Part shown: piece after piece, positions 23,700-33,040 of the stretch
How the letters are laid out: each line of letters begins with the position of its first letter
How positions within the stretch are numbered: the stretch's first letter is position 1
Source: Ignavibacteriales bacterium
GTDB lineage: Bacteria; Bacteroidota; Ignavibacteria; UBA10030
Direction: 5' to 3'
Length of the DNA stretch: 64,000 bases
NCBI GenBank assembly: GCA_026390595.1
Contig: JAPLFQ010000020.1
Location: 1-64,000 of the forward strand
Notes under the pieces: generated by a model
Seen by the model: only the letters and a program-made list of their open reading frames with translations
Told to the model about the DNA's origin: nothing
Databases searched by the model: none
Made by a program: the position numbers and the translations under genes

Positions 23700-26600
23700 C
23701 TATTGCCCCAGCATCTTCAATCGTTGTGAAGCCGTGTCGTAGTCTTCGCCGCTTTTCAACATCTTCAAAACCTGCTGGTACGACTCCCTCGCCTTGCCCA
23801 CTTCCTTCATCTGCTCATACGCCTGTCCCAGCCCGACATATGCCTTGGCAACCCAGGTTTCGTGAGAAGGGAAGACATACCGGACGCGGAGAAACGCGGT
23901 AATTGCATTCGGCAAGTCACCGCTCTGTGCGTAGGCAAGTCCGCTCAGATACTGCGCCTCAGCTCCAACGTCATCAGTTCGGGTTGTCGCTGCCTTCTGT
24001 GCGAGATCCTGTGAGACGACATAGTCTTTCGCGCTGAGCGCTATTCTCGCTAACCCGACCCGCGCCTTGTCTGCCTCAATCGTCGAGGGGAATTTCGAAA
24101 TCACATATTCGAATTTCGCTTTCGCGTCATCCATTGCGCCATTCTCCACAAACACCACTCCGCGGAGATACGCCGCCTGAGGTGCGAAATCTGTATTCAC
24201 CAGATCCGCGTCAGCCCTGTCGAGGACATTGAAAGACCGTTCATATTCCTTCTGCTTCAAGTAGATACGCGCGCTCTCAAGAAGAGCAGTGGCCTTGATT
24301 GTGATCGGGACATTCGCAACATCCGCCGAAGAGAGATACGCACCCGCAGCCGCCATAAGGCTGTCAGATTCCTGCAAACCACGCCCCAGCCCATAGAGAG
24401 CCTGGGCCCGAAGAGCTGATTTGGGATGGCGGGCCACGAAACTCCGGTACTCCTGCGCAGCGTCGCTGAACTGCTTCTGACTTAGCAGGAGATCGGCCTT
24501 TTTCATTTCGAGTTGTTCGGCATTCGGAGAAGTAGGGTTTTCCTTGACATAGGCGTCGATCGTTCCGACAGCTTCTTTCCCCTTTCCCAGTGCAACGAGG
24601 CAGTATTGCACACCCGTCAACGCGTCGGCAGCAAGAGGGCTCCGGGGGAAGCGCTGGAGGACTTCACGGTACGATTTCTCTGCGGCCGCGTACTGCCTGA
24701 GATTGTAGTACGAATCTCCTATGCTGTAGTATGCCCGGGGAACAAGTTCGCTTTCAGCATACTTCGTGAGAACAGACTGAAACTCTTTGATTGCGGCGAG
24801 ATAGTCCTTGCGCTGAAACTTCATCCAGCCCAGCGCATACTGGGCATCGTCAGCGAGATTTGATGTTGGATATGCCTTGATGAGAGCGCTAAACTGGTCA
24901 GCAGCCTGCTCGTGATCTGACGACCGATAGAAGGTTTGTCCCAGCTGATACAGCGCGTAGTCCGCCCCTTCGTTTTTTGGGAAGAGACGCACAACGGTCC
25001 GATATGCTCCGGCGGCTTTCTTGTAGTCCTTGAGCTGGAAGTAACAATCTCCCAGCCTCAGTCGCGCATCGAAAGAGAATTTCCCCGAGGGATAGGCGAT
25101 GATCAGTTTTTCAAACGACTCAATCGCTTTGGAGAAATCGCCGAGCTTGAAGTAGGTCCATCCGATCCCGTACATTCCTTCTTCGCGCCGGGCATGCTTG
25201 GTTATAGCGGCGATCGCCTGATAGTGCTTCAGGGCGCCGCGAAAATCTCCGGCCTGGTATTCTGACTCGGCAAGCCAGTAGAGCGCTTCGGATGACTTGG
25301 GATGGTCGGGATACGTAGCAATGAATCTTGAGAATCCCGCCGCCGCCTCTTTGGATTTCCTCAGCTTGAACGTGCTCCAGGCAAGCTGATAAGAGGAGGT
25401 CACCTTCGTTTCGAATGAAAGTCCGCTGAAAGAGAGCGCTTTCTCGAAGCATATCCTCGCTGAGTCGAATGCCGAACTTTCCACGTAGCACTCCCCAAGC
25501 ATCATGAACGCATCTGCCATGACATCGCTGCTGTCGAAGCCTTTCACGACACGGCTGAAATACCATTTTGCCTGTTCATGCTTTTTGTCTTCGAACAGAA
25601 TCGTCCCTGCGTCATAGAGCGCGTTATCGGCATTCTCTCCCCGCGGATCACTTTGAGCGAGTGCCGTGAATGTCGCGAGTGCATCGTCCTTCTTTCCAGC
25701 GAGTTTCTCCGCTACCCCTTTCCTGTACTGAGCGGCAGCACCGATTTGACCTCCGGCATTCCCGAGCTTTCCGAATGTCTCCGCAGCGGAATCGAACTGG
25801 CGTTCCTTGAAGAGCGTCCACCCCAGCGCGTACTGAACCTCCTTCATCAGATGATGTCCGGGGTACTCCTTCAGAAATGATTCGTATTGTTTCTGCGCCT
25901 TCTCGTACTGACCGAGATTGTAGTACGATTCGCCGATGATGTAATCGGCTTCACCCCTGAGAACGGTCGAGTCGATGCTCGTTTTCGCCGATGTGAGTTC
26001 GTCGATTGCCCGCGTGTAATCTTTCGTGTAAAAGTAGCACTCTCCCACCTTGACCCGCGATGTAGATACGAGAGAACTCTGCGGCAGTTTATCGATCACG
26101 ATCCTGTACCATTCTGCAGCTTTTGCGTAGTCCCCTTTCTTTTGATTCGTCCATCCAGCGGAATAGGCTGCGTAGTCCTGGAGCCGGTTTCCTGGAAACC
26201 CTTCGAATGAGAGCGTGTAGTACTTCAGGGCGTTGTTGAGGTCTTCATCCTTGAGATAGATCTCCCCGATCCAATATGCTGCTTCACCGGCTACAGACGG
26301 ATTTTTGGGATGCTCGAGTATGGATTTGTAGGCTTCCACAGCATCCCGATTCCTCTTGAGTTTCGCGTACGTATCTCCAAGACGAAACCGGGCGTTGTCG
26401 GAAAGGATTGACGTTGGATACTGACTCACGAAATTCGTGAATTCGCGGGCAGCGGACGGATACTGTTCAAGTTGGAAGAAACAGTCGGCCCGAAGAAACA
26501 GTGCGTCCTGAATTCTGACGCTTTGGGGATGTTTGCTCGCGAATTTTTCGAATTGTTCCGCTGCAATCTGAAAGAGGCCGTCCCTGTAAAGACCATGAGC

Positions 26601-26765
26601 AAATGCGTAGTCTTGCTCCTCCGCGATATTTGCATTGGGCACAGGCAGATTCTGAGAAAAGACCCTCTGACTAACCCCAACCGCAAGAGCGGAAAAAAGG
26701 AACAAAAACGCCAAGAAACGAAGCATCAGCTTATGTTGATCTGCCACCTTCGGCGTTCCAAACAC
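23700..26765 (-). CDS. Large exported TPR-repeat protein
   Basis: This 1,021-residue protein starts at GTG, supported by GGAGG five bases upstream. It has a hydrophobic export signal (MLRFLAFLFLFSALAVGV, about 14-31). The rest is a run of tetratricopeptide repeats, roughly 20 or more, many of the YbgF/BamD-like kind with the pattern ALYxLGxxYYxLxxYxxAxxxFxxxLxxYPxS. Such arrays are protein-binding scaffolds. No lipobox is seen, so a soluble periplasmic location is likely. It is the first gene of an apparent operon with a barrel (4 bp downstream), a SPOR protein and a TonB-like protein. I do not recognise a named family. Confidence 0.85.
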   Translation of the reverse strand: MFGTPKVADQHKLMLRFLAFLFLFSALAVGVSQRVFSQNLPVPNANIAEEQDYAFAHGLYRDGLFQIAAEQFEKFASKHPQSVRIQDALFLRADCFFQLEQYPSAAREFTNFVSQYPTSILSDNARFRLGDTYAKLKRNRDAVEAYKSILEHPKNPSVAGEAAYWIGEIYLKDEDLNNALKYYTLSFEGFPGNRLQDYAAYSAGWTNQKKGDYAKAAEWYRIVIDKLPQSSLVSTSRVKVGECYFYTKDYTRAIDELTSAKTSIDSTVLRGEADYIIGESYYNLGQYEKAQKQYESFLKEYPGHHLMKEVQYALGWTLFKERQFDSAAETFGKLGNAGGQIGAAAQYRKGVAEKLAGKKDDALATFTALAQSDPRGENADNALYDAGTILFEDKKHEQAKWYFSRVVKGFDSSDVMADAFMMLGECYVESSAFDSARICFEKALSFSGLSFETKVTSSYQLAWSTFKLRKSKEAAAGFSRFIATYPDHPKSSEALYWLAESEYQAGDFRGALKHYQAIAAITKHARREEGMYGIGWTYFKLGDFSKAIESFEKLIIAYPSGKFSFDARLRLGDCYFQLKDYKKAAGAYRTVVRLFPKNEGADYALYQLGQTFYRSSDHEQAADQFSALIKAYPTSNLADDAQYALGWMKFQRKDYLAAIKEFQSVLTKYAESELVPRAYYSIGDSYYNLRQYAAAEKSYREVLQRFPRSPLAADALTGVQYCLVALGKGKEAVGTIDAYVKENPTSPNAEQLEMKKADLLLSQKQFSDAAQEYRSFVARHPKSALRAQALYGLGRGLQESDSLMAAAGAYLSSADVANVPITIKATALLESARIYLKQKEYERSFNVLDRADADLVNTDFAPQAAYLRGVVFVENGAMDDAKAKFEYVISKFPSTIEADKARVGLARIALSAKDYVVSQDLAQKAATTRTDDVGAEAQYLSGLAYAQSGDLPNAITAFLRVRYVFPSHETWVAKAYVGLGQAYEQMKEVGKARESYQQVLKMLKSGEDYDTASQRLKMLGQ

Positions 26766-27030
26766 CTAGGCCTCCAAACTTAAAGTGTAGTTTGAGATGA
26801 TTCTTTTAACGCTCTAATTTAGCTGAAATGACAAAAGAAGTCAAGAACTTCGCAATTATCCTGAGCTTCCCGGGCAGCTCTTCGAGGAAGTCAGGAAAAA
26901 CGCGCAAATAGATTAAAAAAGCGAGATTCCCGATTCCCGGGGAGGCCTTGAATTCCAATTGTTAGACGCCGGAAACTTGAAAAGGGGTAAAGAGGGGTTT
27001 GGCGAAGGGGGTCGGTTCGTGCGAAAGGCC

Positions 27031-28872
27031 CTATCCAGTGATCTCCTTCTGATACTCCTGCAGGCTTTTCACTTCAATTCCGTGCAACTTCTGTTGCTCT
27101 ATTCCCTTCACGGCCGACGCAGCAGCCGAAAGGGTTGTAATGAAGGAGACTTTTTGTTCGATCGCCGCCCAACCGATGGAATATTCATCGTATCTGGATT
27201 CCTCGCCGAGCGGAGTATTGATCACGAGTTTGATATCGCCGTTCTTTATCATGTCGACGACATTCGGTCTCCCTTCATTTACTTTGAAGACGGTCGCACA
27301 TTCAACGTTGTTCTCCTGCAAGAATTTTGCCGTCCCCTCTGTCGCCACGAGCGAAAAACCCAATCGCGTGTAGTCACGCGCGATCTTCACTGTGAGAGGG
27401 GTCTTGTCGCTGTTGTTGACGCTGATGAAAACAGTGCCATCTGTGGGGAGTGTATTCCCGGCACCCATCTGAGCTTTGGCGATCGCCGCTCCAAAATCGG
27501 CCGCTATCCCCATGACCTCCCCTGTCGAGCGCATTTCCGGTCCAAGGAACACCGGGACACGCGGGAACTTCGAAAACGGAAACACGGCTTCCTTTACGGA
27601 GATATGTTTTACTTTCGCGTAGTCGAAATCCCGTACCCCAAGATCTTCCAGCGTCCTGCCGATCATGACCTTGGCCGCAATCTTGGCCAGCGGAAGCCCA
27701 ACCGCTTTGCTGACGAATGGTACCGTCCGGGATGCCCGCGGATTCACTTCGAGGACATAGACAACTCCATCTTTCATCGCATACTGGATATTGATCAGGC
27801 CGATCACATTCAGCGCCTTCGCGAGCCGGACCGTATAGTTTTTCAGCTCTTCAAGATTCGTCGCCGAGATCATATACGGGGGAAGCACGCAAGAACTGTC
27901 ACCGGAGTGGATGCCCGCCTCCTCGATATGCTCCATGACTCCGCCTATCAATACATCCTTGCCGTCACAGACGGCATCAACGTCGAACTCGAACGCGTCC
28001 TCAAGGAACCGGTCGATAAGAACGGGATGTTCCGGGGAAACGTCAACCGCCTTTTTCATGTACTCACGGACAGCATCGCTGTTATAACAAATTTCCATTG
28101 CGCGCCCTCCGAGCACATACGAAGGACGGATGAGAACCGGGAAACCGATCTGCTCCGCGACGAGGACCGCATTGCTGACAGAGTACGCCGTCCCATACAT
28201 CGGATGCGGAATCTTGAGCTTTCGCAGGAGGGCTCCGAACCGTTCACGATCCTCGGCAATATCGATTCCCTCGGATGAAGTGCCCAGGATACGGACACCG
28301 TTTTCTTCCAGCGATTTGGCAAGCTTCAGCGGAGTCTGTCCCCCAAAACTGACGATCAAACCGAGGGGCTGTTCGTGGTCATAGATATTGAGAACATCCT
28401 CCAGCGTGAGAGGCTCGAAATACAATTTGTCTGTAGTGTCGTAATCCGTGGAAACGGTCTCCGGATTACAGTTGATCATGATCGTCTCGATTCCTTCTTC
28501 CTCGAGAGCGTAGACTCCATGCACGCAGCAATAGTCAAACTCGATCCCCTGTCCAATCCGGTTCGGTCCCCCGCCGAGGATGATCACCTTCTTCCGGTTT
28601 GTGCGAATCGATTCATTTTCCTGATCATATGTGGAATAATGGTAGGGAGTGTGCGCCTCGAACTCAGCAGCGCAGGTATCGACGGTCTTGAACACAGGGG
28701 TGACCCCCATCTCCTTCCGGAGACAGCGGATAGCCTTTTCGTTGGTCCCCCACAGATGCGCGAGCTGCCGATCGGAGAAGCCGTATTGCTTCGCCTTTAA
28801 CAATACCTCGCGGGTCACGCGCGGCGGAACACCCTTAGTTTTCAAGCTTGTTTTCACGAGGCCGTAGTTCAC
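27031..28872 (-). CDS. carB: Carbamoyl-phosphate synthase large subunit, C-terminal half (split gene)
   Basis: This 613-residue protein corresponds to the second half of CarB, which phosphorylates carbamate to carbamoyl phosphate for pyrimidine and arginine synthesis. It starts in the oligomerisation domain (KQYGFSDRQLA, then VDTCAAEF). It continues through the second ATP-grasp domain (GGGPNRIGQGIEFDYCC; MINCNPETVSTDYD; LEVNPRASR) and ends with the MGS-like allosteric domain (LVINTPLGEESRYDEY). Its GTG start overlaps the end of the Spy-like gene by 38 bp and has no good ribosome site, so translation probably depends on coupling. The first half is encoded at 29358-30839. Nothing essential seems lost at the break. 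carA is not in the window. Confidence 0.93.
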   Translation of the reverse strand: MNYGLVKTSLKTKGVPPRVTREVLLKAKQYGFSDRQLAHLWGTNEKAIRCLRKEMGVTPVFKTVDTCAAEFEAHTPYHYSTYDQENESIRTNRKKVIILGGGPNRIGQGIEFDYCCVHGVYALEEEGIETIMINCNPETVSTDYDTTDKLYFEPLTLEDVLNIYDHEQPLGLIVSFGGQTPLKLAKSLEENGVRILGTSSEGIDIAEDRERFGALLRKLKIPHPMYGTAYSVSNAVLVAEQIGFPVLIRPSYVLGGRAMEICYNSDAVREYMKKAVDVSPEHPVLIDRFLEDAFEFDVDAVCDGKDVLIGGVMEHIEEAGIHSGDSSCVLPPYMISATNLEELKNYTVRLAKALNVIGLINIQYAMKDGVVYVLEVNPRASRTVPFVSKAVGLPLAKIAAKVMIGRTLEDLGVRDFDYAKVKHISVKEAVFPFSKFPRVPVFLGPEMRSTGEVMGIAADFGAAIAKAQMGAGNTLPTDGTVFISVNNSDKTPLTVKIARDYTRLGFSLVATEGTAKFLQENNVECATVFKVNEGRPNVVDMIKNGDIKLVINTPLGEESRYDEYSIGWAAIEQKVSFITTLSAAASAVKGIEQQKLHGIEVKSLQEYQKEITG

Positions 28873-29383
28873 CGTATTGTTTGATCTGATCAGGAGTAAG
28901 AATTTGCTTCATCCGCAAATGCGCCTGCAGATGAATGAACCTCAGATCAGCCCGCAATTTCCCGATCTGCTCCAGCTTCGCCCTCAGCACTTTCTCCGTG
29001 ACCGTTCCGGCTTCAAAGAGTTTGAACAATTCATCTTCTGCCTGAACGACCTCTTCTCCTTTTGCGACCGCTGAACTTGAAACGACTTTGTCCAACGCTT
29101 CCGTTTTCTTCAGCTGATCCCGGGTGAGACCGAGTTCAGCCTTCATTGTTATCACATGTTTCGGTCCGGGATAGTTGTTCAGATCGGCGATGGCCGCAAG
29201 CCCCATACCGAGCCCCTTCAGAAGAGCATCTTTGTCCGGCGGGACTGTCGGTTGAGCAAACAGACGCCCCGAGGACACACCCAACAGGACCAGGCCGATG
29301 ATCAATCGGAACCTCAGCATTTTCCAGGCCGCAAAGCCGCCCCGCTTCTTTAGATGGTCACAAAGGCTGCACGCCGTACCCAT
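28835..29383 (-). CDS. Spy/CpxP-like (LTxxQ) exported protein inserted between the carB halves
   Basis: This is a 182-residue protein. A long basic N-region leads into a signal core ([18 protein letters not shown]). The mature part is predicted alpha-helical and has the two hallmarks of Spy/CpxP/metal-resistance proteins: [19 protein letters not shown] near residue 60 and [13 protein letters not shown] near the end. Such periplasmic proteins act as chaperones or metal-stress sensors. ATG 29383 is preceded by a perfect AGGAGG six bases upstream, which lies inside the end of the carB N-half; the two genes overlap by 26 bp. A later ATG at 29320 is possible but has a poorer site. Its placement inside a pyrimidine gene is very odd; no functional tie is known to me. 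Confidence 0.82.
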
Positions 29384-30839
29384 ACAACTCCTCCTCACAA
29401 TCGACAATCTGTTTCAGGTTATGGAGAAACCAGGGATCTATCTTCGTCACGTTGTGCAACTCGGCGATTGTCGCACCGAGCTGCAACGCATAACGGATGT
29501 AAAATACGTTGTTTGGTTTCGGCATTTTCAGACGGTCGAGGGTCTTCTTCTTCCACTCTTCACGCTTGTCATCAGTGAGTGTCCGGACATCGATGATATC
29601 TTTCCCGTCCGCTCCGAGGCCGAAACGTCCCTGCTCGAGGGAACGCAGAGCTTTCTGAAATGCCTCCTTGAAGGTGCGCCCTATCGCCATTGCTTCGCCG
29701 ACAGACTTCATCTGAACTCCGAGCGTGTCATCGACGCCCTTGAATTTCTCAAAATCCCAACGCGGAATCTTCACCACACAATAATCGATCGTGGGCTCGA
29801 AGGAGGCGGGCGTTTCCTTTGTGATGTCGTTCGGAATTTCGTCGAGCGTGTACCCGATGGCGAGTTTGGCAGCGATCTTGGCAATTGGGAAGCCGGTGGC
29901 TTTTGATGCAAGCGCAGAAGACCTGGACACTCGTGGGTTCATTTCGATGACCGTCATCCTGCCGTCCGCCGGATTGATGGCGAACTGTATGTTCGATCCC
30001 CCCGTCTCGACGCCGATCTCCCGTATAATCCGGATCGCAGCATCCCTCATTGTCTGATATTCTTTGTCTGTCAGCGTCTGAGCAGGAGCAACCGTTATGG
30101 AATCCCCCGTGTGGACTCCCATTGGATCAAAGTTCTCTATTGAACAAATGATGACCACATTATCTTTGAGATCACGCATGACCTCAAGTTCATATTCTTT
30201 CCATCCGATAACCGACTCTTCAACGAGAACCTGGTGGGTGGGACTGCTCGTCAAGCCATGCTCCACCTTCTCGCGAAATTCCTCGAGGTTGTACGCGGTT
30301 CCTCCCCCCGTCCCGCCCAGCGTAAACGACGGGCGAATGATAATCGGCAATCCAATCTCATCGGCAACCTGCATCGCTTCCTGGAGCGTGTGGACAAACC
30401 GCCCGCGGGGAGTCTCGAGACCGATTCGGCTCATTGCTGCCTGAAACAGTTCGCGATCCTCGGCTTTCTTGATCGCCTCGAGCTTTGCCCCAATCAATTC
30501 GACGCCGTACTTCTTCAAGACACCGCTCTCGGCAAGCGCAACGGCCGTATTCAGCGCCGTCTGCCCTCCCATGGTGGGGAGAATGACATCCGGCCTCTCC
30601 TTTTCAATGATCTTTTCAACAACGGCAGGCGTGATGGGCTCGACGTAAGTCGCATCGGCGAGATCCGGGTCGGTCATGATCGTGGCAGGGTTACTGTTGA
30701 TGAGCAGGACACGATACCCTTCTTCCCTCAGCACCTTGCAGGCCTGAGTTCCGGAGTAATCAAATTCACATGCTTGACCAATAACGATGGGGCCGGAACC
30801 GATAATCAGGATGGACTTGATATCACTTCGTTTGGGCAA
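29358..30839 (-). CDS. carB: Carbamoyl-phosphate synthase large subunit, N-terminal half (split gene)
   Basis: This 493-residue protein covers the first CarB ATP-grasp domain, which makes carboxyphosphate, and the start of the oligomerisation domain. It opens with the family-typical [17 protein letters not shown], read from a TTG start; an in-frame stop lies just upstream, so TTG is the only reasonable choice. Further signatures are [34 protein letters not shown] and [18 protein letters not shown]. It ends shortly after [19 protein letters not shown], which aligns with the E. coli oligomerisation domain near residue 470, then stops. The other half lies downstream after an inserted gene. The halves sum to 1,106 residues against 1,073 in E. 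coli, so all domains are present. Confidence 0.94.
29390..29395 (-). promoter_or_regulatory. Strong ribosome site for the inserted Spy-like gene inside the carB N-half
   Basis: The minus strand reads AGGAGG here, six bases before the ATG at 29383. The same bases encode Glu-Glu of the carB product, so the site seems to have arisen or been kept within the old reading frame. It decides the start of the Spy-like gene and implies translational coupling. Confidence 0.75.
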
Positions 30840-30994
30840 CTTCGGCTTTCACTCGTTCTAGTGTGGAGAAACCAATAAGCGTGGGCATTAATATACCACT
30901 CTTGCGATTCGTAATCAATATCAGAACCGCACTTGTCAATTCATCGCGGAGTCAGGGCGCACGACCATGGTGACTGGCTCTCCAGGTGGAGTCG

Positions 30995-33040
30995 TCAGCG
31001 CAGCAGGACCATCTTCCGTGTTTGGACCAGATTACCCGACACCATCATTCGACAATAATACACCCCTGACGGAAGGCCGCCTCCTCGAATGGAAACACCT
31101 TCAAACTGTACCGTGTGATGTCCCGCTTCAAAGATTTGGTCTTTTGCAAGCACGTTTACGAGCTCTCCGAGCCCGTTGTAGATTTCGAGCGTCACTTGCG
31201 ATGTCCTGGGAAGATCAAACGGGATCACGGTCGACGGATTGAACGGGTTCGGGTAGTTCTGCAGGAGCGCGTACATTTCCGGCATCTCCGAAATCTGCTC
31301 GATGTTCACGACGGTTCCAGAGGAGCTTTTCACGATCCAGTTATTCGGGTCCAGCTGGAATGACGTCGGCATCTTCGGCAGCGTGAAAACAAAAACCTGG
31401 CTGGCGGCGTTGTTCAATACGACGATCGTCGTATCGAATGCCGAGCCGGTGAACCTGAAATCGATCGGCATCTGGAAAAACGCCGGGTTGCTTGTTCCGG
31501 TCGTCTGCGTGAGAGAGACCCGAACCGTGTAGGGCGGGCCGGCCTGCGTGGTTCCCCATTCATAGCGATATGCAGGATATCGTCCGCCATAGATCCACTG
31601 ACTGAAGAAGTACCCGAGCGGCTGGCCTGAAACGGTTTCGCAGACCGACTGGAAATCCTCGGTCGACGCAACGCCGTACTGAAACCGCTTGTCGGTCGCG
31701 TATTGCTTCATTGCCTTGAAGAAAACGGAATCTCCGAGTACGCGGCGAAGCATGTGAAGCACCGCCCCCCCCTTGTGATAAACCAAGACGGTGTTGAATA
31801 CCTGTCCGACAGTCGACGTATCCTTGACATACACCGATCCATTGACCGTAGGTGAAACGATGCCGGGGAAAATGTGATTGAGGACTTCATCATTGAACGC
31901 AGCCTGCCCGTATTTCTTCTCCCGGTACAGCGCCACGCAGTAGGTGGCGAAGCCTTCGTTCAACCAGATGTGAGGCCAGGTCTTCATCGTGATCATGTCC
32001 CCAAACCACTGGTGAGCCATTTCATGGGCAATGAGGCTCTCGTCGAAACTCCCGAGTGACGTCATCTTCTGGTGCTCCATGCCTCCGCCCCAGCCGAATT
32101 GTGAGTGACCGTACTTCTCTTTCACGAACGGATACAATCCGAACAAGTCGGAATAGATCTGAAGCATGGAGAGGGTTACGCCCATCGATGATGTTGCAGG
32201 GACGATGCTCGAGGAAAGCGCATAGTTCAACACCTGCATCGAATCTGATGGAGTGTATTTGAACCACCCCGAGAACTCGGCGTAATCAGCGACAGCAATT
32301 GAAACGAGGTACGTTGCTATGGGATAGCGATGCTTCCATTTGTGCGTCCTGGTCCCATCTCCGTTATCGACGACGGAGACCAGCTTTCCCTCTGATCCGA
32401 CTTTGAACAGTGCGTCGCAGGTTACCCAGACATCGGCGGAATCCGCTTTGTCTCCCGGGTGGTCCTTGCACGGCCACCAGTCTTTCGCGCCGTAGGGTTC
32501 GCTCAGAGACCAGACCCAGGGATTCGTCGAGCCCGGAGCGGTCTGGAACGCGAAACTCCCAAACCCGGAACTCCCCGGGACACCGTGGTAGTAAACAGTC
32601 GTCGTAAAATATTCCCCCGCACCGTAGCCGCGATTCAAAGGGATATTCACGAACGACGTCTGCTGATCAAACCCTGTAACGCGAGTTCCCCCAGCGATCA
32701 CCGAGTCAACTTTCATCGTGCTCATCAGGTCGAGCGTCACTGATGAAAGACTGCTCGTAAGGCTTCTGGCAACCATCGTCACGGCCCCGCTTACATCGCC
32801 GGGCGAGGTCCTGAGTTTCAGGTCGAGCTTGTAGTAGGTGACATCAAATCCTTCCTGGCCCGGCGTGAGTGTGGAAGATAATTTTGACAGCTGCTCCGCC
32901 CGGAGAGTTTCCTGCGATTCGAATTCCTGCCTCCGGTACTCTTTCCGTTCCTGGGGCAACAGAGAGCTCGCCGAAACGAGAGTACATAAAACCAAGAGAG
33001 CGAGGCGGTGTGGGTTCAAAGTCCTCTGGAACATTGTCAT
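30995..33040 (-). CDS. Secreted M1-family metallopeptidase with type IX sorting domain
   Basis: This 681-residue exported zinc aminopeptidase-like enzyme has a signal peptide (about 1-29, LALLVLCTLVSASSLL). The beta-saddle M1 domain follows. The catalytic part shows GGMEHQK, in place of the GAMEN exopeptidase motif, and HEMAHQWFG with the third ligand in WLNEGFATY, 18 residues after the second His. The last 90 residues form a type IX secretion C-terminal domain: LLQNYPNPFNPSTVIPFDLP, then LPSGVYYCRM and KMVLLR at the end. It should therefore cross the outer membrane by the type IX system and be released or anchored at the surface. It stands alone downstream of a divergent gap and upstream of carB. 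Its substrates are unknown. Confidence 0.93.
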   Translation of the reverse strand: MTMFQRTLNPHRLALLVLCTLVSASSLLPQERKEYRRQEFESQETLRAEQLSKLSSTLTPGQEGFDVTYYKLDLKLRTSPGDVSGAVTMVARSLTSSLSSVTLDLMSTMKVDSVIAGGTRVTGFDQQTSFVNIPLNRGYGAGEYFTTTVYYHGVPGSSGFGSFAFQTAPGSTNPWVWSLSEPYGAKDWWPCKDHPGDKADSADVWVTCDALFKVGSEGKLVSVVDNGDGTRTHKWKHRYPIATYLVSIAVADYAEFSGWFKYTPSDSMQVLNYALSSSIVPATSSMGVTLSMLQIYSDLFGLYPFVKEKYGHSQFGWGGGMEHQKMTSLGSFDESLIAHEMAHQWFGDMITMKTWPHIWLNEGFATYCVALYREKKYGQAAFNDEVLNHIFPGIVSPTVNGSVYVKDTSTVGQVFNTVLVYHKGGAVLHMLRRVLGDSVFFKAMKQYATDKRFQYGVASTEDFQSVCETVSGQPLGYFFSQWIYGGRYPAYRYEWGTTQAGPPYTVRVSLTQTTGTSNPAFFQMPIDFRFTGSAFDTTIVVLNNAASQVFVFTLPKMPTSFQLDPNNWIVKSSSGTVVNIEQISEMPEMYALLQNYPNPFNPSTVIPFDLPRTSQVTLEIYNGLGELVNVLAKDQIFEAGHHTVQFEGVSIRGGGLPSGVYYCRMMVSGNLVQTRKMVLLR

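Follow-up and report, generated by a model that had tools for sequence, protein, structure and literature searches.

The question raised by the locus studied here is why carB, the gene for the large subunit of carbamoyl-phosphate synthase, is interrupted by a gene for an unrelated protein, and whether the latter is linked with the enzyme in function or is tolerated there. In the window, by which we mean the whole stretch of 64,000 nt that was analysed (contig JAPLFQ010000020.1 of an Ignavibacteriales bacterium, assembly GCA_026390595.1), the order on the minus strand is carB-N, the middle gene, called the passenger below, and carB-C. The preliminary description had offered two readings, neutral hitch-hiking and a regulatory link through coupled translation.

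The two halves of carB

The N-terminal half of the large subunit is encoded by carB-N (29358..30839, minus strand; 493 aa, TTG start, TGA stop at 29360..29358), with the Pfam domains CPSase_L_D1, D2 and the first part of D3, and the C-terminal half by carB-C (27031..28857, minus strand; 608 aa with the MGS domain, likeliest start GTG 28857). By phmmer, carB-N matches residues 1-481 of E. coli CarB and carB-C residues 487-1052, and thus the break lies inside the linker between the synthetase halves, between positions equivalent to 481 and 487 of the E. coli protein. This agrees with the preliminary description, in which the halves were taken to be complete, collinear with E. coli CarB and cut in this linker. 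The oligomerisation domain is, by Pfam, shared out between carB-N and carB-C, both halves match NCBIfam PRK05294.1 (848 and 852 bits), and the two ORFs jointly cover the whole large subunit. When a second CarB was sought in the same genome (36 contigs, 95.67% complete), only ATP-grasp proteins of 22-25% identity were found besides the halves. The same contig carries carA at 371959, at a distance of about 340 kb from the split carB. It is also noted that an ORF lies upstream of carB-N at 30995-33040 (minus strand), the product of which, by its motifs, resembles an M1-type peptidase and has a sorting-like tail at its C-terminus.

No structured RNA was found by Rfam in 26500-31200, and the numbers of promoter-like sites (5, against 2.7 in shuffles, sd 1.8) and terminator-like sites (5, against 4.1, sd 1.9) are near the shuffle means and thus at chance level.

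Junctions of the passenger with the two halves

The gap between the halves as first annotated is 485 nt, and the carB-N end overlaps the passenger start by 26 nt (29358..29383, minus strand), both as given before. This overlap is kept among near relatives only. Before the passenger start stands AGGAGG (29390..29395, minus strand), which had been described as a perfect start site; the word is indeed present, with a spacer of 6 to ATG 29383, but it lies within carB-N, where it is part of the Glu codons for the EEEL motif of CarB, and only near relatives share it. At the other junction, GTG 28857 is the more likely start of carB-C, rather than 28872, because GTG or ATG stands at the same place in G001, G002, G003, G005 and G020. 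With this start the passenger 3' end and the carB-C start overlap by 23 nt (28835..28857, minus strand), and not by the 38 nt that had been proposed. No Shine-Dalgarno-like word was found in the 20 nt before this GTG in the window. Here and below, Shine-Dalgarno words and start codons are sequence-based candidates.

Across the genomes compared, the distance from the carB-N stop to the passenger start ranges from -26 to over +170 nt, the spacer in G027 being at least 178 nt. The start site on the carB-N side and the proposed regulatory link are thus not conserved, and the lack of a constant geometry at this junction counts against a dedicated switch. At the carB-C side, 16 of 18 family-1 genomes have a candidate carB-C start that falls within the passenger end; such an overlap is frequent in family 1 alone and is absent in G011, G024, G043, G048 and G055.

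The passenger protein

The passenger gene (28835..29383, minus strand) encodes a Spy/CnrX-like protein that is predicted to be exported, with ATG 29383 as the likeliest start (182 aa) and ATG 29320 as the alternative (161 aa). A hydrophobic, signal-peptide-like stretch (MLRFRLIIG...LFAQ) is seen by hydropathy at 29254..29320 (minus strand), and a hydrophobic segment of mean hydropathy at least 2.0 stands ahead of the mature domain in 22 of the 22 embedded proteins tested, the export call for the passengers being one of hydropathy only. Its earlier characterisation as a signal-peptide LTxxQ protein holds as far as this stretch, the motifs LTRDQ and LTPDQ and the profile resemblance are concerned, but both Pfam scores are below the cut-offs (LTXXQ 19.5 against 24.3 bits; Metal_resist 19.8 against 29.2), and the Spy NCBIfam gives 18.3 bits against a cut-off of 174. 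Because the scores are under the curated cut-offs, the label "Spy/CnrX-like" is used here. The structure model is all-helical (pLDDT 88), and the closest solved structures are NccX (Z 9.0), CnrX, CpxP (8.4) and Spy (8.1), where helical matches of Z under about 13 may be due to chance. Foldseek with this model gave zero matches at E <=0.001; a profile of 35 passenger relatives, compared with the PDB, gave a VirG-like protein at 1.2e-5 and Spy at 0.016. The His at residue 134 of the window protein is present in most free-standing relatives, and several embedded members are without it.

The dN/dS of the passenger is 0.03-0.13 versus 0.015-0.041 for the carB halves in the five of eight pairs that yielded a value; with dS of 0.8-1.9 and three of the eight pairs saturated these values are rough, and they indicate, roughly, that the passenger is kept as a protein by purifying selection. 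A foreign origin of the passenger, sought by composition, has no strong signal (GC3 0.59, the carB halves having 0.64-0.65; overall GC of the window 0.544), and the mobile-element repeats sought at its ends came to four short two-copy direct families and no inverted pairs, none of them framing the gene.

Free-standing relatives of the passenger are spread over many phyla. Among 62 relative loci in named genomes, 18 adjoin carB (by title, 16 Ignavibacteri- and 2 Bacteroidetes) and 44 are without a carB match in the flank examined; note that several of the 18 are the same contigs as genomes compared below, so that the two sets are not independent. Two loci, L135 and L162, followed among the 18 free-standing loci with neighbours listed, lie near CusA/CzcA heavy-metal efflux genes.

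The arrangement in relatives

The order carB-N, passenger, carB-C was found, far beyond chance, in 25 genomes of three families in one taxonomic order: 18 of family 1, six of family 3 (G043, G048, G055, G063, G064, G066) and one of family 6 (G054). G063 is counted here though its contig starts at the passenger, with carB-N unseen; the contigs of G064, G001 and G003 end in carB-C. Since relatives share the order, a misassembly or a chimeric contig, which had been named as what might undo the observation, is excluded in practice; that all the genomes are draft, metagenome-type ones speaks for it, and the recurrence of these junctions in 25 genomes whose sequences have diverged leaves it next to no probability.

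In family 1 (28 genomes read), besides the 18 with the passenger between the halves, seven have carB split without an intact passenger (G006, G008, G010, G012, G015, G029, G030) and three have a continuous carB (G014, G019, G025). In family 6, the congeners of G054, namely G041 and G046, have the split without insert, as does G074. Within the genera g9, g15, g21 and g26, the state of the locus varies among members. Two family-3 genomes, G052 and G061, have free-standing genes close to the family-3 passengers (L032 395-862 and L180 843-1316), beside which no carB match was found in the stretches examined; the CarB of G052 is a continuous, distant one (about 40-47% identical), and in G061 no CarB was found at E 1e-130. 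As a separate observation, some family-1 genomes have a second, continuous CarB about 51% identical to the split one (G013:C15, G015:C300, G025:C64, G031:C61).

The break also holds other genes. The family-5 genomes read have a continuous carB except G090 and G089, where the break holds a protein of 351-361 aa with a type IX sorting domain (L183 3031-4086 and L182 4469-5554; PF18962 and TIGR04183 over cut-off), which is unrelated to the Spy/CnrX-like passenger and the start of which overlaps the carB-N stop. The two inserts are 37% identical, the carB-C DNA 81%, and the continuous carB of G035 has a carB-C part 88.5% identical to that of G090. In a class-level search of 391 genomes, at least 40 further places were read among the matches listed, and what follows holds among those matches. 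Of the 10 family-12 genomes in which both halves were read, 9 show the split with no insert, the anchors being about 80-125 nt apart. The break holds a PD-(D/E)XK nuclease gene in G199 (L198), a HAD hydrolase gene in G171 (L206), and, within 3 kb, a Y1 transposase together with a HAD hydrolase in G099 (L209). In families 10, 7 and 22 the halves are clearly apart, and no carB-N was found in the upstream stretch read, as was so at 13 places of family 10, and in G160 and G128 as well.

Decayed passengers and probably rejoined carB

Decayed 3' pieces of the passenger are present in G010, G015, G029 and G030, where the best alignment score (63-100) is larger than in all 300 shuffles each (maximum 46-49). 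G006 and G008 are borderline (41 versus a shuffle maximum of 40; 1 of 300 shuffles), and the gap of G012 gave no passenger signal, 53 of 300 shuffles being as good, so that these three split genomes of family 1 retain little or none of the passenger. The HMM search alone is ambiguous (0.001 for G015 and 0.0076 for G029, versus 0.002-0.008 for unrelated gaps in G006, G008, G041 and G046), and it was the shuffle test that separated the four.

In a quick tree of 30 rows, placing either G019 or G025 outside the split group of family 1 is rejected (AU p 0.0013 and 0.0004, respectively). As a homologous passenger is common to the split members, the simplest reading is rejoining, whether through a deletion or through recombination with a continuous allele, and the carB of these two genomes was thus probably rejoined after the split. 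G014 may be a third case; a re-fusion scar sought in its linker was not significant, 153 of 2000 shuffles being as good.

Numbers of changes and of insertions

A CarB tree of 49 rows requires at least 12 state changes, and a tree of 73 rows, which has SH-aLRT support only, at least 18; between split and continuous alone, the 73-row tree requires 10 changes. The passenger groupings largely agree with the CarB tree, and those of the 18 family-1 genomes unite in a single clade (support 93/98, bootstrap not settled). A single clade of all 25 embedded passengers is rejected (p 0.0365), whereas one of the 25 together with the two free-standing family-3 genes is not (p 0.465); a single insertion is therefore possible and not shown. 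The G054 passenger groups with L154 (support 98/88).

Explanation of the arrangement

We consider it likely that CarB here is made as two associating polypeptides, and that the passenger is a self-interested, tolerated member of the operon, inherited in place, lost in some lineages, with carB rejoined in others. In an ancestor within the order, CarB would already have consisted of two polypeptides, separated at the linker of the synthetase halves, and by analogy the two chains would associate with CarA like the separate subunits of Aquifex. The exported Spy/CnrX-like gene would then have entered the break and been inherited there, presumably kept for an envelope or metal-related role of its own. 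In family 1 an overlap of its 3' end with the start of carB-C would have arisen, making a clean deletion harder, and with the carB-C start inside the passenger end in most of that family, carB-C translation may lean on the passenger. Decay leaves the 3' end, as seen in the four genomes above, and this tail may tend to outlive the rest. The passenger seems dispensable to CarB, having been lost in several lineages, with a continuous carB apparently regained in at least two. Of the two readings in the preliminary description, hitch-hiking thus fits best, given the loss and decay, the free-standing relatives, and the other genes or none in the break. That exported genes of two unrelated kinds occupy this break could nevertheless hint at selection for export.

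In the regulatory reading, translation or export of the passenger would set the level of carB-C, so that pyrimidine and arginine synthesis would respond to envelope or metal stress. The overlap in family 1, the survival of the 3' tail and the heavy-metal efflux genes near L135 and L162 are in its favour, but the overlap is absent in the five genomes named above, the spacing at the carB-N side is variable, the passenger is lost or decayed in 7 of 28 family-1 genomes, carB is continuous in 3 of 28, and elsewhere the same break holds other genes or none. We therefore regard it as unlikely and do not retain it as a conserved function; a local coupling of the passenger 3' end with the carB-C start in family 1 may exist. 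It is also conceivable that frameshifting or read-through over the passenger still yields a single CarB chain, since the reading frames overlap at both of its ends in the window; with overlaps that vary or are absent, the long spacer in G027 and, among the matches listed, the plainly separate location of the halves in families 10, 7 and 22, this is very improbable.

A further possibility, to which we give rather less than even chances, is that the break was made once and that homologous passengers entered it repeatedly, in family 1, family 3 and G054, the break being a tolerated landing place. The congeners of G054 with an empty break, the rejection of a clade of the 25, the grouping of G054 with L154 and the other genes that got into the break elsewhere are consistent with it. 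On the other side, the clade of 27 is not rejected, and the same small family entering several times is less simple. More speculatively, the CarB linker could be a reversible fission point, which exported-protein genes enter repeatedly (the Spy/CnrX-like one, and the type-IX-secretion protein in G089 and G090) and where carB can reclose; in its boldest form, co-translation of an envelope protein with the enzyme halves would be selected for, and the break would be a recruitment site beyond mere tolerance. We think it improbable that this is so.

On the preferred reading, that of a tolerated passenger in a two-chain CarB, the genomes form a natural series: continuous, split without insert, split with an intact passenger, split with a decayed one, and continuous but nested within the split group. 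Gene fission is commonly regarded as one-way; the series shows the gene of an essential multidomain enzyme cut, long hosting a foreign gene and probably joined again. For annotation, it warns that the short "carB" ORFs in these genomes are neither pseudogenes nor frameshifts.

Comparison with known systems

Split CarB is already known. In open-licence papers on split CarB, Ignavibacteria and gene fission we found no account of the nested arrangement, and the form with an exported gene inside and apparent reversibility is thus apparently without an earlier account in that literature. The split synthase of Aquifex aeolicus (CPS.A, CPS.B) is reported to have separate subunits that form one active complex with the glutaminase (PMC6022934). 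The locus here is like it in having the large subunit as two polypeptides, one per synthetase half, and unlike it in having the halves in one directon that encloses an unrelated exported-protein gene, with their association assumed by analogy. With the periplasmic proteins Spy, CpxP, CnrX-NccX and ZraP (LTXXQ, Metal_resist) the passenger shares the signal-peptide-like start, the LTRDQ/LTPDQ motifs and weak profile matches, and its all-helical model comes nearest to NccX, CnrX, CpxP and Spy at Z 8.1-9.0, where chance may suffice; the passenger differs from them in being under both Pfam cut-offs, in being encoded within a carB break and in the missing His 134 of several embedded members. Finally, in the mitochondrial cox2 of the wasp Campsomeris, insertional fission has been described, with a nuclease ORF suggested as the cause (PMC5374615). 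There too one gene has become two complementary genes, separated by other ORFs, whereas the present case is bacterial, its passenger is a predicted exported protein with no nuclease domain, and its split is seemingly reversible.
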